From Chloroflexota bacterium (GTDB lineage Bacteria > Chloroflexota > Anaerolineae > Fen-1058), in assembly GCA_016219235.1 (NCBI GenBank), contig JACRBO010000058.1:1-6469 (forward strand): 6,469 nt of DNA. Direction: 5' to 3'. Positions 32 to 6,469 of this stretch are shown piece after piece. Under the pieces are notes generated by a model. That model saw only the letters and a list, made by a program, of their open reading frames with translations. It had not been told where the DNA came from and ran no database searches. The translations under genes and the position numbers were made by a program. Numbering within the stretch: the first letter of the stretch is position 1; each line of letters opens with the position of its first letter.

Positions 32-613
32 ATGAAGGCGAAATCGAGCACGGCAGCCAGGCGCACCACCAGGCCCGCCGCCAAAGCAAAATCGACTCCG
101 ACGGCGGCGTCCGCCAAGGCAGCGGCCAGCAAGTCCAAGGCCAGGCCGCCCGCTAAAGCGACAGCCAAACCTAAAGCGACCGTCAAGCCAAAAGCAGCGG
201 CAGGCGGCAAGTCTGCCGCTGGCACGCGCGCTCAACCATGGAAATTGAAGACGCCCAGCGGATCATCGGAATACGTCATGTTCCGCGACGAGACGTTGGA
301 TCCGCCCGCACTGGTGTGCGTGGTGGGCACGACGGAACTGCGCTATCACCTGCGCTGCCTGGATGACCTCCACGTGCTGTTGAAGCAGCACGGCGACTGG
401 CTGCCGCTGGGCAGCGCCGACGAGCAGAAGCCCGCCGCGCCCGGCACGGTGGAAGCCTGGGCACGCTCCGCGGACAATCCCGTGGGCGGGTGGTACGGGC
501 TGAAGAAGGGCCTGCGGGGGCGCTTCGGCATGTACGTGCCGCCCTTGATGGAACTGCTGGGGCTGGCCGAAGTGGAGCACAACGCGAAGAACAATCGTAT
601 GCGGGCGCGGTAA
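32..613 (+). CDS. Histone-H1-like Lys/Ala/Pro-rich tail fused to a small conserved domain, function unknown
   Basis: The protein has 193 residues. The ATG at 32 is preceded by GGGAGG at 18-23, eight bases upstream, which supports this start. Residues 1 to about 68 are almost only Lys, Ala, Pro, Ser, Thr and Arg with repeated AKxKA/KPKA motifs. This resembles eukaryotic H1 tails and bacterial H1-like proteins, so nucleic-acid binding is likely for this part (inference). From about residue 70 a compact, normally composed domain begins (QPWKLKTPSG) and runs to the end; landmarks are HGDWLPLGSADEQKP, NPVGGWYGLKKG and a C-terminal HNAKNNRMRA. I recall this domain as a widespread standalone bacterial family of unknown function (possibly DUF6855, unverified). 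It ends in TAA. Only 31 bases of upstream sequence are present, so no promoter can be judged. Codons 151-193 and 44 bases beyond the stop are duplicated 2.9 kb downstream. The next gene lies on the opposite strand, so this gene appears monocistronic. Confidence 0.85.
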   Translation: MKAKSSTAARRTTRPAAKAKSTPTAASAKAAASKSKARPPAKATAKPKATVKPKAAAGGKSAAGTRAQPWKLKTPSGSSEYVMFRDETLDPPALVCVVGTTELRYHLRCLDDLHVLLKQHGDWLPLGSADEQKPAAPGTVEAWARSADNPVGGWYGLKKGLRGRFGMYVPPLMELLGLAEVEHNAKNNRMRAR

Positions 614-657
614 AACTCGCGGGCGTGGAGCAGTCAAATCAAACGCGGCGATCCAGC
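482..657 (+). repeat. Left copy of a direct repeat: gene 3' end plus half a terminator
   Basis: These 176 bases contain the last 43 codons of the first gene, its TAA (611-613) and 44 bases beyond. They recur at 3389-3560 with only two substitutions (554 C/T and 580 C/T) and a 4-base gap (TGTA 531-534, absent in the other copy). Both substitutions are synonymous in the intact reading frame, and the noncoding 44 bases are identical. The copy ends three bases after the first arm (AACGCGGCGATCC, 642-654) of a hairpin that is complete only in the right copy. Confidence 0.95.
642..654 (+). other. Orphan half of a terminator hairpin
   Basis: AACGCGGCGATCC is the left arm of the 13-bp stem found intact at 3545-3579. 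Here the sequence departs three bases later (from 658) and the partner arm is missing, so no such hairpin can form. Gene 1 has therefore lost this terminator. Its nearest downstream hairpin is now the one at 700-730. Confidence 0.8.
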
Positions 658-699
658 AACGGCAGAGTCAATGAGCCGTTTACGCAAGCTGGACACATA

Positions 700-730
700 A
701 CACGCCCCGGCCAGACTGGCCGGGGCGTGT
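700..730 (-). terminator. Strong hairpin terminator of the beta-helix gene
   Basis: A perfect 14-bp stem (700-713 with 717-730, arms starting ACACGCCCCGGCC) closes a 3-base loop. It lies 30 bases past the stop of the minus-strand gene. The tail on the minus strand (TATGTGTCC) is not T-rich, so termination may depend on the very GC-rich stem. It may also stop transcripts of the first gene coming from the left. Confidence 0.75.
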
Positions 731-760
731 CAATTGGTTGGCAACCGTTCAGGGTATCGA

Positions 761-3142
761 TTAGCCGTTTTTCAACACCACAGGCAAATAAACCCGCCGC
801 TGTTCACCCAACTTGACGACCTCGTTGGAGTAGGCGCTTTCGCGACCCAGGTAATCGTAGGCAGCCACCACAAAGTGATAGTCGCCGCTGGCAGACAGGC
901 CGTTCACTACTACCGTAGCGCCCTGCCCTAGATCGATGGGCGAATCGCCCTGCGGCAAACCGCTGCCATTATAGGGCGTACAGCTATCGGCGTCATAGTA
1001 CAGGCGATAGCCCCAATCAGGCGCGGCCGGTCCGGGGTTGCGGCAGCCGATGTCAGGCACAGGCGAACTCGGCGTCCAAGTGAGTGTGATCGTGGCCGTG
1101 CCCGTGACGACGCTCAGATTCGCGGGCGCCGACAACTGCGCTAGTGGTGTCGGAGAATACAGGCTAGGCGCATACCGCAGCGGGCCTCGACCAGGCGCGT
1201 CAAGCCCATCGTAGAACTGGCCGGGAATCGCGCCACAGGCGGACGGTCCCCAGTAATTGAGCGTGGCGCTCACCTCGCCGGATGACACCACCTCGGCATC
1301 GTAGGGCAGATTGCCGTACAGGTTATTGTAATGAACCTGCGGCTGCCCGCTGATCGAAACACCGCCGACCACGCCGCCGGGCGCGGTGTTGCTGACCACA
1401 CTGTTATAACTGAAGTCGGTGGCATTCACCACGTACGCGCCGGAGCCGTACCCAAAGGACGGCGACTGGTTATAGGCGAGGAAGTTCTGGGTGACGATGC
1501 TGCCGTTGGCGTACAAGCCGCCGCCGTCACTCTGGGCCGTATTGCTTTGAACCAGATTAGCGCGCACGGTGCCGCTGATGGCGTACAGGCCCGCGCCGAC
1601 ATTGGCCGTGTTGGCTTCCAGCGTGTTGCCGGTCAGCGTTGCCTTGTAACCGTACAGGCCGCCGCCGTAGTTGGCCGTGTTATACTTGAGTGTGTTTTGC
1701 AGCGCCGTGCCCTCGTCAACGTATAGTGTCCCGCTTAAGGTCGTGGTGTTGGAAAGGATGGTGTTGTTGGTGGTCGTCCCTTTGAATGAGTAGACACCGC
1801 CGCCGCGCTGGCTGCTGTTGTTTGTGACCGTGTTCTGCTGGACGGTATTCTGGCGGCCATAAATTCCGCCACCCTGACCGTCCGCCCCACCGGACGCCGT
1901 GTTCAAGTGGACGACGTTACTGCTGACCGCGCCGCCATCAGCATAGATGCCGCCGCCGTAACCGACATTGTTCGCTCCAACTGTAGACGCGGTGTTACCG
2001 GTGATGGTGTTGCCGGTAATGGTACTGCCTGAGCCGTAGATGCCGCCGCCGTAAGCATTGTCATTGTTCAAGCCGGCGGCGCTATTGCCGCTGATCAGGT
2101 TGCCATTTACGGTGCTCAACGAAGCATAGATGCCGCCGCCATAGACGTGGTTGCCGTAAGCGCCGGTGGTGAAGTTGCCGCTAATGGTGTTGTTCGTCAC
2201 CGTACCGCCCGCCGCGTAGATCCCCGCGCCGTATTGGTTCACGGTGTTGCCGCTGACGGTGTTGCCGGTCAGCGTGCTGCCGCTCGCATAAACTCCGCCG
2301 CCGTGATAACCATCGGCGTTGTTGCCGCTTACGACATTGCCGATCAATGTGCTGCCGGTGGCGTAGATGCCGCCCCCGTCCGTGTAAGAGTTGTTGTTCG
2401 TCACCGTATTGCTGAGCAGTGTGCTGGCCGAAGCATAAATCCCGCCGCCGCGGTCGCCGTTGACAAAGGCCGTGACATTGCTGTCCACCGTGTTCCCCGT
2501 CACAGAGCCATTGGCGACGTAGAGGCCGCCGCCATCTCCGTTGACTGTGTTGTGATTGAGGTTATTGCCGCTGACGACGATGAGGTGGCTGGCTGAACGG
2601 CCGGTGGCATGCAGGCCGCTACTCGCATTGTTCTGAATGGTGTTGGCAGTGATGAACGGCGAGGCGGAAGCCGCCTCGACTGCGCCGCTCACCCCGGCGC
2701 CGCCGCCGCCCCATTCGACGAGACTGTTCTGAAGCAGGCTTCCGCCTATATACTGGCCGCTACCGTTGAAGACGGCGTCTACGCTGCTGGCGGTAAAGAA
2801 GATACGCCCCCAGTCGCCTTTCGCATGGGTCGGCTTACCGGACGTAAAGGTAGCGCCCTGAGCGATGAGTGTGCCGTCGACTTGCAGCGAGGTGCCCGCG
2901 CCAAACTTCACGACGACGCCCGACTCAATGGTGAGCGTCACGCCGATCGTGACCTGCACATCGCACGTGACGGTGTATGGATTGTTCGCGGCGAGCCAGG
3001 TCGTATTGGTCGCAATGGCACCGCAGACATTGCCGGTGGGCGCGGCCCGAGCTGCTGCTGGCGGCTGGACGGACAGGAATAGCAGCACACAGCCTAGCAA
3101 GCTGACCGCGATCGACAGACTTCTACTTCGCAAACTTGGCAT
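761..3142 (-). CDS. Secreted right-handed parallel beta-helix protein with C-terminal Fn3-like domain
   Basis: The protein has 793 residues and is probably exported. Residues 1 to about 33 form a signal peptide: an Arg-containing start, a hydrophobic core IAVSLLGCVLLFLSV, and a likely cut after ARA. Residues 40-100 match the cap that often opens beta-helix proteins (TTWLAANNPYTVTC, then LTIESGVVVKFG). Residues 204 to about 590 contain about 15 coils of 22-31 residues starting GGGIYA/GAGIYA and continuing with xTxxGNTVSGNT. NYWG at 629-632 marks the usual end of the helix. Residues about 671-778 look like a fibronectin type III domain (APANLSVV, ITLTWT, YHFVVAAYD). The protein ends VYLPVVLKNG, a Chloroflexota-type terminal motif that may act in surface sorting (inference). 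The start is supported by AAAGGA ten bases upstream. No polysaccharide lyase or protease catalytic motif is evident, so an adhesive or structural surface role is as likely as an enzymatic one. The gene lies alone inside the putative insert. Confidence 0.92.
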   Translation of the reverse strand: MPSLRSRSLSIAVSLLGCVLLFLSVQPPAAARAAPTGNVCGAIATNTTWLAANNPYTVTCDVQVTIGVTLTIESGVVVKFGAGTSLQVDGTLIAQGATFTSGKPTHAKGDWGRIFFTASSVDAVFNGSGQYIGGSLLQNSLVEWGGGGAGVSGAVEAASASPFITANTIQNNASSGLHATGRSASHLIVVSGNNLNHNTVNGDGGGLYVANGSVTGNTVDSNVTAFVNGDRGGGIYASASTLLSNTVTNNNSYTDGGGIYATGSTLIGNVVSGNNADGYHGGGVYASGSTLTGNTVSGNTVNQYGAGIYAAGGTVTNNTISGNFTTGAYGNHVYGGGIYASLSTVNGNLISGNSAAGLNNDNAYGGGIYGSGSTITGNTITGNTASTVGANNVGYGGGIYADGGAVSSNVVHLNTASGGADGQGGGIYGRQNTVQQNTVTNNSSQRGGGVYSFKGTTTNNTILSNTTTLSGTLYVDEGTALQNTLKYNTANYGGGLYGYKATLTGNTLEANTANVGAGLYAISGTVRANLVQSNTAQSDGGGLYANGSIVTQNFLAYNQSPSFGYGSGAYVVNATDFSYNSVVSNTAPGGVVGGVSISGQPQVHYNNLYGNLPYDAEVVSSGEVSATLNYWGPSACGAIPGQFYDGLDAPGRGPLRYAPSLYSPTPLAQLSAPANLSVVTGTATITLTWTPSSPVPDIGCRNPGPAAPDWGYRLYYDADSCTPYNGSGLPQGDSPIDLGQGATVVVNGLSASGDYHFVVAAYDYLGRESAYSNEVVKLGEQRRVYLPVVLKNG
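1373..2533 (-). repeat. Coding repeat array: about 15 beta-helix coils
   Basis: The DNA encoding residues 204-590 is degenerate tandem repetition, visible on the + strand as recurrent GCCGCCGCC blocks followed by GTTGCCGGT-type blocks, spaced 66-93 bases. Each unit encodes GGGIYA, then a turn, then a GNTVSGN ladder of Asn and Thr that packs inside a beta-helix. Unit length varies at one loop, with the longest inserts around residues 224-232, 324-334 and 385-396. The repetition also creates open antisense frames that should not be taken as genes. Confidence 0.85.
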
Positions 3143-3388
3143 GGCGATTCATTCCTTTCGATGGGTGTGGGTTGCCAACTCGATCGATTTAATGAGACCT
3201 TCGATCGCCCGTGCCGGGCCTGATGAATGGCTGGAATGAACGCATGTTAATATACAATCACAACCGAGGGCGTTACCCATCCTAACATAGTTTAGAATTC
3301 GAAGTCAATGTGTGCGCAGCGTAGATCCGCCCGACCAGTTGGCGATCGATGCTAGCGTATGCTACAGTAAGCACCTGTAAACAGGCTG
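3143..3388. other. Leader and right edge of the putative insert; no gene seen
   Basis: These 246 bases, with the decayed fragment and terminator that follow, make about 450 bases without an intact gene (3143-3596). The part next to the beta-helix gene is its 5' leader with a Shine-Dalgarno at 3153-3158. Bases about 3245-3300 are notably AT-rich against the surroundings and contain the best -10 candidate. CGATCG occurs three times (3181, 3202, 3343). A small inverted repeat CCTGTAAACAGG sits at 3374-3385, immediately before the junction. No convincing small ORF or structured RNA was recognised. Confidence 0.6.
3249..3254 (-). promoter_or_regulatory. Candidate -10 box for the beta-helix gene
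   Basis: On the minus strand this reads TATATT inside an AT-rich stretch about 100 bases upstream of the ATG. No good -35 hexamer lies 16-18 bases upstream (GGTAAC is at the expected place). The call rests on the AT-rich setting and position only. Confidence 0.3.
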
Positions 3389-3516
3389 GTGGGCGGGTGG
3401 TACGGGCTGAAGAAGGGCCTGCGGGGGCGCTTCGGCACGTGCCGCCCTTGATGGAATTGCTGGGGCTGGCCGAAGTGGAGCATAACGCGAAGAACAATCG
3501 TATGCGGGCGCGGTAA
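3389..3516 (+). pseudogene. Decayed 3' fragment of the H1-tail/conserved-domain gene
   Basis: This matches codons 151-193 of the gene at 32-613. It has no start, no 5' two-thirds and no promoter. Loss of four bases after GRFG shifts the frame, giving GTCRP and a premature TGA, so it cannot encode the domain end. The original TAA position is still recognisable at 3514-3516. It is best read as the displaced original gene tail, left behind when the beta-helix block arrived, or as the far arm of an integration repeat. Confidence 0.88.
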
Positions 3517-3560
3517 AACTCGCGGGCGTGGAGCAGTCAAATCAAACGCGGCGATCCAGC
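3389..3560 (+). repeat. Right copy of the direct repeat
   Basis: These 172 bases are nearly identical to 482-657: two substitutions (3457 and 3483) and a 4-base deletion. The match starts at G3389 and ends at C3560, inside the loop of the terminator at 3545-3579. Confidence 0.95.
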
Positions 3561-3579
3561 TGAGTCGGATCGCCGCGTT
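3545..3579 (-). terminator. Intact hairpin terminator of the amber-split gene, possibly bidirectional
   Basis: A perfect 13-bp stem, AACGCGGCGATCC (3545-3557) with GGATCGCCGCGTT (3567-3579), encloses a 9-base loop. On the minus strand it is followed by TTTGATTTGACTG, a T-rich tail, 17 bases beyond the stop of the minus-strand gene. On the + strand the tail GTCGTAAGC is weak. Before the insertion it probably lay between two convergent genes and could have served both. The tail TTTGATTT also follows the hairpin at 5663-5696. Confidence 0.8.
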
Positions 3580-3596
3580 GTCGTAAGCGGATGAAA

Positions 3597-4430
3597 TCAG
3601 CGGGCCAGATAGTAGCCGTCGCCCAGCGCCCGGAAGGTGGTTTGAGCAGCCAGCGCGGCAAACAGCGGGCCGGGCGGCGTGCGGCGCACCAGGTTCAGCG
3701 CCGCGTACAGCGTCTTGACGTGGACGTTGCCCTGCGGACTGAGTTTGGCCAGTTCCGGCAGCAGCTGCACGATCAATTCGCTCAACGGCGTGCCGCGCTC
3801 GGCCAGCTGCGCGGTGAGTTTGTCGATACCGGCAGTGTCGTCGGCGATCACGATCAACTGTTCGTCGTAATCGCACGGAATCTGCCGTTTGATCATGTCA
3901 AAGGTCAGGCGGTTGTCGCGCAGCACGGCCACGCGCACCCATTCACGGCGGGGGCGCAGACCGCGCAAATCCACCACCACTACGCCGGGTTCGTCGCTGC
4001 GGGAGAGCTGCACGTAAGCGCCCGCGGGCACATCGTTGGCAGCGTACCACACATCCAGGCCAAAGGCATAGTGGCGCTCGCGCACTACCCAGCCGGGCCA
4101 GCGCTGACCGCTGCGGGCATCTTCGAACATGAAGCGGATGCGGTGCGTGCGGCCGTCGGGGAACAGGCGCGAGGTCGTGGACGACAGCGGCACGGTGCCC
4201 GCGCGCCGGTGTGGATACGTCAGCGTAAAGGTCACTTCTTCGTCGTCGAGTGACGCGTCGGCTGACGCATCATCGGCGGGCAAGTCCGACCATTCATCGT
4301 CGAGTTTGCGTTCGAACTTCAGCAAATCCGCGTTGAGCGCGCCGGGCGTGTAATCGATCGGCCTGTACTGCAACCGATCGGGCAGCTGTCGCACGCTGTC
4401 CGGTTCCAGCCGCACCAGATACCACAGCAC
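3597..4430 (-). CDS. C-terminal part of an amber-interrupted gene, function unknown
   Basis: This ORF codes for 277 residues if started at GTG 4430, ending in TGA. I do not recognise the family. Residues 41-66 form an acidic, low-complexity linker (DDEWSDLPADDASADAS). About residues 67-170 look beta-rich (VTFTLTYPHRR, HRIRFMFEDARSG, YAFGLDVWYA, GVVVVDLRGL). The end, residues 212-277, looks helical and closes with FRALGDGYYLAR, reminiscent of a winged-helix type fold (weak). The GTG at 4430 is doubtful as a real start. The 28 codons upstream are in frame and protein-like (IFSLNYALYHDERFDEVGP), contain no ATG, GTG or TTG, and run straight back to the TAG that ends the ORF at 4515-5180. No clear ribosome site precedes 4430. 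It is most likely the second half of one 527-codon gene. Confidence 0.7.
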   Translation of the reverse strand: MLWYLVRLEPDSVRQLPDRLQYRPIDYTPGALNADLLKFERKLDDEWSDLPADDASADASLDDEEVTFTLTYPHRRAGTVPLSSTTSRLFPDGRTHRIRFMFEDARSGQRWPGWVVRERHYAFGLDVWYAANDVPAGAYVQLSRSDEPGVVVVDLRGLRPRREWVRVAVLRDNRLTFDMIKRQIPCDYDEQLIVIADDTAGIDKLTAQLAERGTPLSELIVQLLPELAKLSPQGNVHVKTLYAALNLVRRTPPGPLFAALAAQTTFRALGDGYYLAR

Positions 4431-4514
4431 TTCGCCGGCCGGCCCTACCTCGTCAAAGCGCTCGTCGTGATACAGCGCGTAATTCAGCGAGAAGATTTGC
4501 TGGCTGCTATTGTT
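4431..4514 (-). other. In-frame coding-like segment between the amber codon and the next usable start
   Basis: Read in the frame shared by both neighbouring ORFs this gives 28 sense codons, beginning NNSSQQIFSLNYALY and ending PAGE before the GTG at 4430. The composition is that of a folded protein and it contains no start codon of the ATG/GTG/TTG type. It can only be translated by reading through the TAG or from an unusual start. Confidence 0.75.
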
Positions 4515-4517
4515 CTA
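4515..4517 (-). other. In-frame amber (TAG) codon splitting one reading frame
   Basis: Minus-strand context is CCG CCC TAG AAC AAT AGC AGC CAG CAA. Upstream (4518-5180) and downstream (3600-4514) are open in this same frame, so no indel is needed to join them. A single C-to-T change of CAG would create it, and the site lies in a Gln/Asn/Ser-rich linker where Gln would be natural. None of the other certain genes in the window ends in TAG (they use TAA or TGA). Confidence 0.85.
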
Positions 4518-5180
4518 GGGCGGCTGGCCGACTACGGCCAGGTTCGCTTCGGTGGACAGCGGGCCGCCGCCGTTCATGTCCAGCACCGCTTCGGCGATAT
4601 TGAGCTGGCCCACGTTCACATCGGCGATGAGGGCGCGCGGAAACCACGACCCGGCCAGCCAGACAAAATCGGGCGCGGCTTGCAGCAATTGGCGCAGGTG
4701 GGGCACAAAGCGGACGCCATGGCGCTTGTATAGATCGTCGGGCGACACCAGTTCTTCGGTCGGCGACAAGATCGCTGCATCTTCGTTGAGACGATGGCTG
4801 TAGGCAAAGTCGGCGGCGAACTCGCGCCGCGTGCCGTCCAGCTCCACTTCGATCACCTTGAAGTGATCGAAGTCGGGGTTCTGCCCGTCGCGGATGGCCG
4901 TCACCTGGCCCACGGCAAATTCCAGCGCGGGAAAGACCACCTGCTCGCCCACGCTAAACACGCGCTTGGGCTGATACAGCGTGCCCTGGCCTTGCTGCTT
5001 GCGGCGGATGGCGGTCTCTTCGCGCTGTGTGCGATAGCCGATCAACGCGCGCGCCAGCACATCGGTGCTGCGCGGCCGTTCGTCTTCTACAAACAGGTTG
5101 AGCAGAAACTCACGATCATCGGCGGTCAGGGTGAAAGCTTCACCCCAGTACTCGGGGGTCTGTGTGGCGCGGACTGTCAC
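4515..5180 (-). CDS. N-terminal part of an amber-interrupted gene, function unknown
   Basis: The ORF codes for 221 residues ending at TAG. The start is GTG at 5180, supported by AGGAG at 5191-5195 about ten bases upstream and a TATAAT box just beyond. I do not recognise the family. Residues about 18-60 look helical (LTADDREFLLNLFVEDERP, then a basic RTQREETAIRRKQQG), compatible with a DNA-binding or protein-binding helical module. Residues about 73-120 look like a small beta-barrel (FSVGEQVVFPALEFAVGQV, then FKVIEVEL). Residues about 155-205 form a third unit (RHGVRFVPHLRQLLQAAP, VWLAGSWFPRAL). Translation would stop in a Pro/Asn/Ser linker between apparent domains, so the truncated product could still fold. 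The same frame stays open for another 305 codons after the stop. This may be a recent nonsense mutation, suppressed amber, or a base-call error. Confidence 0.78.
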   Translation of the reverse strand: MTVRATQTPEYWGEAFTLTADDREFLLNLFVEDERPRSTDVLARALIGYRTQREETAIRRKQQGQGTLYQPKRVFSVGEQVVFPALEFAVGQVTAIRDGQNPDFDHFKVIEVELDGTRREFAADFAYSHRLNEDAAILSPTEELVSPDDLYKRHGVRFVPHLRQLLQAAPDFVWLAGSWFPRALIADVNVGQLNIAEAVLDMNGGGPLSTEANLAVVGQPP

Positions 5181-5190
5181 TGCTTATGAT

Positions 5191-5195
5191 CTCCT
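5191..5195 (-). promoter_or_regulatory. Shine-Dalgarno that fixes the GTG start at 5180
   Basis: On the minus strand this reads AGGAG, ten bases before GTG 5180. There is no ATG in frame nearby, so this site decides the non-ATG start of the amber-split gene. Confidence 0.65.
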
Positions 5196-5227
5196 GCGAT
5201 TAGGACTGCGTTTGTTTGGCGCGCGGA

Positions 5228-5233
5228 ATTATA
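5228..5233 (-). promoter_or_regulatory. -10 box of the minus-strand amber-split gene
   Basis: On the minus strand this reads TATAAT, a perfect consensus, about 47 bases before the GTG start. The -35 region 17 bases upstream (TTAATT) is weak and is made of the heptamer array at 5240-5288. The array may therefore supply the upstream promoter sequence. Confidence 0.6.
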
Positions 5234-5239
5234 CCACAG

Positions 5240-5288
5240 GAACAATGAACAATTAAGAATGAACAATTAACAATGATCAATGTTCAAT
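5240..5288 (+). repeat. Array of seven 7-bp repeats (GAACAAT type)
   Basis: Seven units in strict 7-base register: GAACAAT, GAACAAT, TAAGAAT, GAACAAT, TAACAAT, GATCAAT, GTTCAAT. This AT-rich array lies between two divergent promoters in GC-rich surroundings. It resembles the short tandemly repeated repetitive (STRR) heptamers known from cyanobacteria. The function is unknown. Confidence 0.85.
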
Positions 5289-5301
5289 GGGCAAGGTGTG
5301 C

Positions 5302-5307
5302 TATACT
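5302..5307 (+). promoter_or_regulatory. -10 box for the DUF2007-like gene
   Basis: TATACT matches the -10 consensus in five of six bases and lies 49 bases before the ATG at 5356. No good -35 is seen at 16-18 bases; the expected place falls in the end of the heptamer array. The transcript would start at about 5313, inside the second short heptamer run. Confidence 0.5.
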
Positions 5308-5335
5308 GATAACCAATCACCGGTTACCGATTACG
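5308..5335 (+). repeat. Four 7-bp repeats (GATAACC/GGTTACC type)
   Basis: GATAACC, AATCACC, GGTTACC, GATTACG follow one another in 7-base register. Bases 5312-5333 are the reverse complement, with one mismatch, of 6225-6246, the start of the array on the other side of the next two genes. Confidence 0.7.
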
Positions 5336-5345
5336 CGCACTCACC

Positions 5346-5350
5346 GGAGG
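5346..5350 (+). promoter_or_regulatory. Shine-Dalgarno that selects the ATG at 5356
   Basis: GGAGG sits five bases before ATG 5356. It argues against an in-frame ATG at 5287, which has no ribosome site and lies upstream of the -10 box. Confidence 0.7.
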
Positions 5351-5355
5351 CAGCG

Positions 5356-5643
5356 ATGTTTGGCAAGAAAGTGCAACTTCAACGCGAAGGTTTGGAGATC
5401 ATTTATCGCGCCCAGGGCATGCTGGAAGCCGAAGCAATAAAGGGCCGTCTGGAAACCTCGGGCATTCCGGCTGCGTTTGATTACGAATCGATCGGGCGCA
5501 CGTTGGGCATCACCATTGACGGGCTGGGCGAGGTGCGCATCCTGGTGCCGATCGAGCGGGCGGCCGAGGCGCGCGAGTTGTTGCGGATCAGCGCTGAGGA
5601 TACGATCGATGAGGCAGAGTTCGATTCATCTAACGAAGCCTGA
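5356..5643 (+). CDS. DUF2007-like small protein (putative signal-transducing family)
   Basis: The protein has 95 residues and begins MFGKKVQLQREG. The core fits the DUF2007 pattern: a first strand (EIIYRAQG), a helix with LEAEAIKGRLETSGIPAAF, a short loop, a strand with VRILVPIERAAEARELL, and an acidic tail. Members of this family are described only as putative signal-transducing proteins; the molecular role is not established. The protein is soluble with no signal peptide or membrane segment. It has its own -10 box and ribosome site, and its stop lies 19 bases before a strong terminator, so it is probably transcribed alone. It diverges from the amber-split gene and converges on the DUF350 gene. 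Confidence 0.85.
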   Translation: MFGKKVQLQREGLEIIYRAQGMLEAEAIKGRLETSGIPAAFDYESIGRTLGITIDGLGEVRILVPIERAAEARELLRISAEDTIDEAEFDSSNEA

Positions 5644-5662
5644 CACACACTCAACGAACCAC

Positions 5663-5696
5663 AACGCCCGATCGGTGATCAAGCCGATCGGGCGTT
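5663..5696 (+). terminator. Hairpin terminator between convergent genes
   Basis: A perfect 13-bp stem, AACGCCCGATCGG (5663-5675) with CCGATCGGGCGTT (5684-5696), encloses an 8-base loop and is followed on the + strand by TTTGATTTCG. It starts 19 bases after the DUF2007-like stop. On the minus strand the tail TGTGGTTCG is poorer, but the position 20 bases past the DUF350 stop suggests use in both directions. Confidence 0.85.
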
Positions 5697-5716
5697 TGAT
5701 TTCGATCGAGCGGCCC

Positions 5717-6199
5717 TCAGCCAACCAGCATCAGCAGAATCGCGTCGAGCGCAGTGCTGACGATCAACGACGTGGCAATGACCACGCCCGCCAGCACGGT
5801 GGCAATCGCCACATTGCCCCGGCCGATCTCTGCCCACTCGTCAATCGCGCCCGTCAGCCGCGTGAAGATCCACAGCGCCGCTCCAATGGCGACGATCGAC
5901 AACAGCAAGCCGATGAGGATTTGAATCAACTGCACAGCCAGCTTGACGACGACGGCATTGGCCGGTCCGACATCCAGGTTGAGCGCGGCGGGCGCCAGGC
6001 CGGGCCGCAAGATGATGCCCACGCCCACGATGAGCGAGGCCAGCACCAGGCCCACCGCCACGTTGCCCTTGCGCAGTTCGTTCCATTCGTCGATGCCGCG
6101 CGTGGTCTTGTCAAACAGCCAGATGCTGAGGAACGCCACCAGTGCGGCGGTAATGACCGAGATAACCAATTGCGCGCCAGACAAGAAAAGTGCAGCCAT
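5717..6199 (-). CDS. DUF350 family membrane protein with two tandem DUF350 repeats
   Basis: The protein has 160 residues with four apparent membrane segments at about 8-28, 47-66, 84-110 and 129-150. Each half carries the DUF350 signature directly after a membrane segment: LFDKTTRGIDEWNELRKGN at 28-46 and IFTRLTGAIDEWAEIGRGN at 111-129, exactly 83 residues apart. This shows an internal duplication. DUF350 proteins are integral inner-membrane proteins of unknown function. The ATG at 6199 has GGAGG four bases upstream (6204-6208). The gene is followed by the shared terminator at 5663-5696. Upstream on the same strand lies the M23 peptidase, separated by 127 bases that hold a repeat array, so cotranscription is possible but unproved. 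Confidence 0.9.
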   Translation of the reverse strand: MAALFLSGAQLVISVITAALVAFLSIWLFDKTTRGIDEWNELRKGNVAVGLVLASLIVGVGIILRPGLAPAALNLDVGPANAVVVKLAVQLIQILIGLLLSIVAIGAALWIFTRLTGAIDEWAEIGRGNVAIATVLAGVVIATSLIVSTALDAILLMLVG

Positions 6200-6224
6200 G
6201 TGTCCTCCAGAAGATGGTGATCAG

Positions 6225-6246
6225 TAAGCGGTAACCGGTGATTGGT
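6225..6246 (-). repeat. Inverted partner of 5312-5333
   Basis: These 22 bases match the reverse complement of 5312-5333 with one mismatch (6228). The core GGTAACCGGTGATTGG is identical. A further partial copy (AATCGGTAACCGGTGA, same orientation as this one) occurs at 6255-6270. Confidence 0.8.
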
Positions 6247-6320
6247 AATTGGTCAATCGGTAACCGGTGAACCAGTTGACCGATTGACTGATCGACTGAT
6301 TGACCAGTTGACTAATCGAC
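6230..6320 (+). repeat. Array of 7/8-bp repeats (GGTAACC to GATTGACT type)
   Basis: It opens with four 7-base units (GGTAACC, GGTGATT, GGTAATT, GGTCAAT) and passes into 8-base units (CGGTAACC, GGTGAACC, AGTTGACC, GATTGACT, GATCGACT, GATTGACC, AGTTGACT), ending with AATCGAC, seven bases before the M23 peptidase stop codon. The last 48 bases (6273-6320) keep an exact 8-base period. It fills most of the gap between the M23 and DUF350 genes. No clear promoter for the DUF350 gene was seen in it. Confidence 0.8.
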
Positions 6321-6326
6321 GGCCTC

Positions 6327-6469
6327 TCACGGAAACGCCCGCCGCGTAAATTGCAGCGGATCGACGTTGAGGCCGCGAATGCGCATATCCCAGTGCAAAT
6401 GCGCGCCCGTCGACAGGCCGGTGTTGCCCGACAGCGCGATCTGATCGCCGGGCTGCACCGTCTGCCCGA
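6327..6469 (-). CDS. M23 family metallopeptidase, C-terminal end only
   Basis: The last 46 codons and the TGA are present; the gene continues past the window edge. The visible part is GQTVQPGDQIALSGNTG, then STGAHLHWDMRI, then LNVDPLQF. The HLH of HLHW is the conserved HxH zinc/catalytic motif of the M23 (LytM/lysostaphin-type) peptidase fold, and the GDQIALSGNTG strand-turn is also typical. Such enzymes cleave peptidoglycan cross-links or act as cell-wall hydrolases outside the membrane. The N-terminal domains, signal peptide and first zinc ligands are out of view, so the subtype cannot be given. Confidence 0.93.
   Translation of the reverse strand, partial: GQTVQPGDQIALSGNTGLSTGAHLHWDMRIRGLNVDPLQFTRRAFP

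Follow-up and report, generated by a model that had tools for sequence, protein, structure and literature searches.

The window, that is, the whole 6,469-nt stretch of DNA analyzed here, is a single contig, and it carries the following features around the locus of interest, G129 and G105 being two genomes of the same genus.

32..613, plus strand: gene 1, an intact DUF6855 gene (PF21619) and the target of the insertion (Pfam, 2.3e-68; ORF list)
482..657, plus strand: left direct-repeat copy, comprising the last 132 nt of gene 1 with the stop codon, then 44 nt including the 5' arm of the native terminator at 642-654 (self-comparison; arm common to G129)
658..760, no strand assigned: end of the insert lying 3' of the beta-helix gene, which forms a perfect 15-bp hairpin of its own at 700-714/716-730 (fold, -31.0 kcal/mol)
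761..3142, minus strand: cargo gene encoding a 793-aa parallel beta-helix protein (PF13229, 1.6e-11; ORF list)
3143..3388, no strand assigned: other end of the insert, on the 5' side of the beta-helix gene, with a G+C content of 50% (base composition)
3389..3560, plus strand: right direct-repeat copy, an orphan gene-1 tail with a 4-nt deletion (self-comparison)
3545..3579, no strand assigned: complete native terminator hairpin with arms at 3545-3557 and 3567-3579 (fold, -26.0 kcal/mol; comparison with G129)
3597..5180, minus strand: convergent gene with an in-frame TAG at 4515-4517, its position conserved in G129 and G105 (ORF list; genome comparison)

The convergent gene is followed by a DUF2007 gene on the plus strand and then a DUF350 gene on the minus strand. 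ARAGORN predicted no tRNA in the window, and no Rfam family scored above its gathering score. The convergent gene forms one open frame of 524-525 aa in both G129 and G105 and is split in the window by the TAG, which may reflect recent pseudogenization, an erroneous base or a mixture of strains; neither of its two pieces matched Pfam or NCBIfam. Three 14-nt units of the type AACAATGAACAATT stand in tandem at 5241-5282, ahead of the DUF2007 gene, and similar repeats are readable in G105 (L105). In addition, the DUF2007-DUF350 pair was bracketed by a 26-nt inverted repeat (92%) of the type ACCAATCACCGGTTACCGATTAC at 5309-5334 and 6224-6249, and further degenerate copies at 6255-6320 suggested that this is perhaps a dispersed intergenic repeat family.

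The G+C content was 61-66% in gene 1, the beta-helix gene and the convergent gene, compared with 50% in 3143-3388. Apart from the parallel beta-helix domain, the 793-aa protein gave a weak FN3-like match below the Pfam cut-off and a match to the POMP repeat TIGR01376 (0.0044). Its C-terminus (761-790) reads ..VYLPVVLKNG and its relatives end in YLPVILRN, YLPLVLKA, YLPLIRRP or YLPLALKG, a C-terminal tail motif that they have in common and that is possibly a sorting signal.

Self-comparison of the window aligned 482-657 with 3389-3560 (176 versus 172 nt) at 96.6% identity over 176 columns (E = 2e-80). The copies differ by a C/T substitution at 554, another at 580 and one 4-nt deletion in the right copy, and they are identical from the gene-1 stop codon (611-613) through 657. 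Both substitutions are synonymous in the frame of gene 1; the left copy belongs to the intact gene, and the right one is frameshifted by its deletion. The match stops inside the terminator: the left copy holds the first arm alone, with no partner to its right, and the right copy continues through the loop and the second arm to give a complete stem. Between the two copies, the longest ORF was that of the beta-helix gene, and all other frames were of at most 157 aa and overlapped it. The insert (658-3388, 2.73 kb) reads as one transcription unit consisting of the gene, a low-G+C upstream region and a hairpin of its own (700-730). The first-pass annotation had described near-identical direct repeats around a single-gene block, a left hairpin arm that had lost its partner and an intact right stem, all of which were confirmed by the self-comparison, the ORF list and the folding energy, and the repeat structure supported its claim that the block had split a terminator and duplicated the gene tail. 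Its statement that the block holds no recombinase was likewise borne out, as no recombinase gene was recognized in 658-3388, where the sole ORF longer than 157 aa encodes the beta-helix protein.

That this arrangement is an assembly chimera, in which sequence of two strains, or of a rearranged clone, was joined into one contig, appears distinctly unlikely. Base errors or strain mixing are possible, given a single contig of this size in which an in-frame stop interrupts a gene left open in both same-genus genomes, but the copies are non-identical, the spacer between them is unique and colinearity with G129 extends over 2.9 kb of the right flank. Moreover, a false join via a shared repeat would be expected to leave one copy, not two.

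The first piece of the convergent gene was used as a query against 396 genomes of the class (Anaerolineae). Matches were obtained in 365 of them, the best being G129 (91%) and G105 (85%), followed by G077, G149 and G041 (66-67%); the genus sample consisted of the first two, and the family and order samples of the same five genomes. G129 was colinear with 3524-6467 of the window at 86% identity, terminator included, and carried no beta-helix gene beside the terminator; a different minus-strand gene lay on that side, which by direct reading of its sequence would encode a metallopeptidase. The other four genomes showed yet other content to the left of the terminator. A 13-nt stretch covering nearly the whole stem arm was identical in G129 and the window, and in the 27 nt before the arm an 18-nt stretch could be aligned to G129 with a score that was reached by 29 of 5,000 random G129 stretches. 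Since G129 has the terminator and the right-hand genes without the beta-helix gene, the terminator and the convergent gene were considered native and the beta-helix block the newcomer, as had been proposed from the window alone. Furthermore, both copies contain the junction of gene tail and terminator, and thus gene 1 should already have stood beside the native terminator before the copies arose. The ancestral order put forward in the first-pass annotation (gene 1, hairpin, convergent gene) was therefore seen in G129 as far as the terminator and the following minus-strand gene are concerned, whereas the earlier presence of gene 1 at that place is only inferred. The search for an empty site was similarly divided in its outcome, as G129 has one terminator and no beta-helix gene, but an allele in which gene 1 runs straight into the terminator was not found. 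In fact, no DUF6855 gene was found anywhere in G129 or in any of the five order genomes. The search itself was effective, since 26 of the 396 class genomes (genome completeness not given) matched DUF6855 at E<=1e-30.

Matches to the beta-helix gene were observed in 7 of the 396 class genomes at E<=1e-40, with at most two candidates scored per genome, and the nearest proteins were 60-63% identical. Within the five order genomes the best relative was in G149, and it was distant (44% over residues 5-147 and 39% over 594-791); the others were weaker. The beta-helix gene thus looks foreign to the lineage, and judging from these matches both it and the DUF6855 gene are sporadic in distribution. The other window proteins matched none of 80 DUF6855 loci at E<=1e-5. 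A literature search found no mention of DUF6855, and one combining beta-helix, Anaerolineae and cell surface found nothing.

The distance of these relatives bears on a history of tandem duplication and deletion. In it, a larger segment that began at 482 and reached, to the right, as far as a beta-helix gene already resident there would have been doubled, and everything from the first terminator half to the beta-helix gene would then have been lost, the right copy being the start of the second unit. Such a history would account for the duplicated native junction without foreign DNA, and its two steps would leave time for the copies to diverge. It needs, however, a downstream beta-helix gene in the genome, and with only distant relatives in the five order genomes, the best of them in G149, we regard it as unlikely.

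For the comparison of DUF6855 loci, 106 loci (101 distinct genes) were combined with 26 more, 5 of which were already included, to give 122 distinct loci. The beta-helix protein had no match at E<=1e-5 in the 127 DUF6855 stretches that represent them. This result bears on homologous integration, in which a circle or a transformed linear fragment carrying the beta-helix block beside the DUF6855 tail of a related strain would have recombined in the 0.17 kb of homology. The copies do differ only at two synonymous sites and a small deletion, like two alleles of one gene, and excerpts of two sources (PMC3240628, PMC2884548) describe homology-facilitated illegitimate recombination in the transformation of competent bacteria, which likewise accounts for foreign DNA captured beside a short homology. 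In contrast to that general process, the present case requires a donor already holding the block fused to this tail and terminator, of which none was seen in the 127 stretches, and a circle with such homology would have to derive from the same locus of a close relative. Homologous integration is thus improbable, and it explains the spread of the arrangement, not its first origin.

Elements with a tyrosine integrase that enter gene 3' ends leave the gene intact on one side and an orphan tail on the other. The window resembles them in its duplicated gene tail, with one intact gene and one orphan tail, but differs in that no tyrosine integrase was found at comparable gene ends and in that the duplicated piece includes local terminator sequence. 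A tyrosine recombinase profile was built from 11 of 30 fetched PF00589 loci and matched all 30, including the 19 unused in its building. With this profile, a tyrosine recombinase was detected in just 1 of the 122 DUF6855 loci, 0.7-1.9 kb upstream of the stop, and none was detected at the 3' end in any of the 122, of which 21 had less than 3.2 kb of downstream sequence. An integrase site at the DUF6855 3' end was accordingly rejected for tyrosine recombinases. The earlier suggestion of an integrase that uses this gene end thus gained no support.

Because a terminator arm native to the locus forms part of the left copy, the duplicated piece was taken to be local sequence. Both copies contain this native arm, and the repeat would accordingly not be a generic gene tail brought in by an element. 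The left copy is continuous with the whole of gene 1, and the right copy is continuous with the terminator and the genes common to G129. The duplicated segment being local, it is therefore the signature of a target duplication or a tandem duplication. It appears highly improbable, then, that the gene was rebuilt by the tail copy of a small passenger brought in by an integrase specific for the 3' end of DUF6855. A gene 3' end is a usual target of such integrases and one other locus, G075 (see below), has the same layout with another cargo, but the repeat contains locus-specific terminator sequence, the single tyrosine recombinase lies upstream of its DUF6855 gene, and the orphan tails differ in extent, with 132 coding nt (left copy) in the window and 37 nt in G075. 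The two tails overlap at the gene end, and a short shared core is possible.

A passively mobilised cassette, as suggested earlier, also found no support. The viral contigs contained no close relative of the DUF6855 or the beta-helix protein (a scan that reaches close relatives only), the whole window had no megablast match among plasmids, and 440-3700 had no blastn match among phages. Eight other beta-helix loci showed no direct repeat at E<=1e-3 joining the flanks within 2 kb, one flank being short in three of them (261 nt in L171, 700 nt in L172 and 239 nt in L178). Whole-locus self-comparison revealed more distant bracketing direct-repeat pairs, with kilobases of other sequence between the members, in L174 (31 nt) and L177 (44 nt). 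Neither end of the insert (658-760, 3143-3388) matched anything in 311 fetched stretches, many of which overlap. Integron cassettes end in attC sites with the core bases RYYYAAC/GTTRRRY, and the hairpin at 3545-3579, read by eye only, appeared to lack these bases.

We also assessed whether other DUF6855 loci carry a second copy of the gene tail. A direct copy of the coding tail at E<1e-5 was detected in 1 of the 122 loci, where copies may be missed given that the downstream sequence was shorter than 3.2 kb in 21 and shorter than 1.1 kb in 6. This single case, G075 (37 nt at 89%, E = 3e-9), has a minus-strand protein kinase gene (PF00069, 1.6e-30) between the DUF6855 gene and an orphan tail of 37 nt, which lies about 1.0 kb further downstream (L179:8982-10431). 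The kinase matched 34 PADLOC models, the best being mad6 (1.1e-37) and PD-T4-6 (9.3e-35), and it may be a single-gene anti-phage defence cargo, although kinase models are unspecific. None of the other DUF6855 loci had the permease or the pentapeptide gene of G075, and comparison with the G075 neighbours gave one weak kinase match (27%) and three weak dehydrogenase-like matches (26-36%). Direct repeats in L195 and L181 lie after the stop or begin 2 nt before it and look intergenic. Control stretches taken deeper inside the DUF6855 gene gave no repeat below E = 0.002.

As a background, 24 of 1,135 gene tails of the same loci were followed by a direct repeat at E<1e-5, the search being confined to cases with a 12-mer in common. 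In a listing read by eye, five of the 1,135 were partial copies that span the stop at a distance above 300 nt (L251, L199, L004 and one each in L028 and L244), some of which are perhaps paralogues. The ORF caller used for these tails missed the DUF6855 gene of G075, where a longer overlapping frame won. The comparison of 1/122 with 5/1135 gave a Fisher p of 0.46; at identity >=85% only L199 remained (1/1135, p = 0.18). The tail match in G075 is thus real and is the result most favourable to the cassette idea of the first-pass annotation, but its rate is not clearly above background: the sought-for second cargo between two tail copies exists in the form of the kinase, in one locus of 122. In L199 and L004, partial downstream copies of the 3' ends of other genes are separated from them by gene-sized spacers of 2,504 and 1,628 nt, and such copies may be additional examples of this type, or else paralogues.

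A search for the orphan-tail pattern over the 396 class genomes gave matches in 23 genomes and two control matches. Two orphan-tail matches fell in genomes without a DUF6855 hit. That in G031, with no further DUF6855 similarity, is probably due to chance. That in G324 (L307:1390-1530) is a DUF6855 remnant that comprises the 47 final codons of the gene (79%) and has a stop close to its end; by eye it is no insertion scar but an internal deletion in which a gene-like start is fused in frame to these codons, as expected from a deletion between two DNP-coding repeats. All in all, we consider it very unlikely that single minus-strand genes land repeatedly at DUF6855 3' ends, with the window and G075 as independent cases of a recombinase-free or trans-acting, tail-duplicating process.

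The reading to which we incline, with somewhat better than even confidence, is a one-off illegitimate insertion with long target duplication. The ancestor would have had the DUF6855 gene, the terminator and the convergent gene, the right half of this order being observed in G129 and the left half reconstructed. A 2.73 kb fragment with one complete transcription unit (the beta-helix gene together with the upstream region and hairpin that belong to it) would then have been captured either at two opposite-strand breaks spaced by about 172-176 nt or at a template switch over the same distance, and fill-in would have left the gene tail and half of the terminator duplicated on both sides. Gene 1 would thereby have stayed intact, the hairpin of the insert would have replaced the split terminator, and the right copy, with no evident function, would be decaying; no encoded recombinase would be needed.

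In favor of this insertion with target duplication, 176- and 172-nt copies of the host target bracket one gene that has only distant relatives in the order. Against it stand the failure to find a DUF6855-bearing empty-site allele and the fact that the copies are not identical; with both substitutions synonymous, the right tail could stem from another allele. Since the copies differ by 2 substitutions in 172 columns, as against 14% between the window and G129 over the right flank, the event is probably younger than the split from G129, which it seems to have followed by a considerable time. At the junctions, at most a few bases of microhomology could be present, from which the chemistry is not readable.

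Insertion with long target duplication is attributed to Nobusato et al. (2000), for Helicobacter pylori, and described for restriction-modification genes in excerpts of five papers (PMC1643837, PMC3874152, PMC3031569, PMC3154945, PMC4978471), one of which gives the duplication length as variable and of the order of 100 bp (PMC3874152). Illegitimate recombination is argued to make much of the small-segment genome diversity of bacteria (PMC2884548), and long flanking repeats are reported around moved plant genes (PMC2869330). The present case fits this known type in having a newcomer gene between long direct copies of host sequence and no recombinase recognized in the 2.73 kb insert. It differs in that the known cases are mostly restriction-modification genes found by strain comparison, whereas the cargo here is a beta-helix gene and no allele differing just by the missing insert was found. 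The arrangement in the window has the look of a single capture event of an already known type, not of a new mobile element. The observation is sound but unexceptional, and alone it reveals no new system. What it offers is a snapshot of the gain of a single gene without a recognizable mobile element, in which the target gene is left whole and the hairpin of the insert takes the place of the split terminator, and with it a pattern reported from restriction-modification systems is extended to a surface-type gene of an uncultured Anaerolineae-like lineage.
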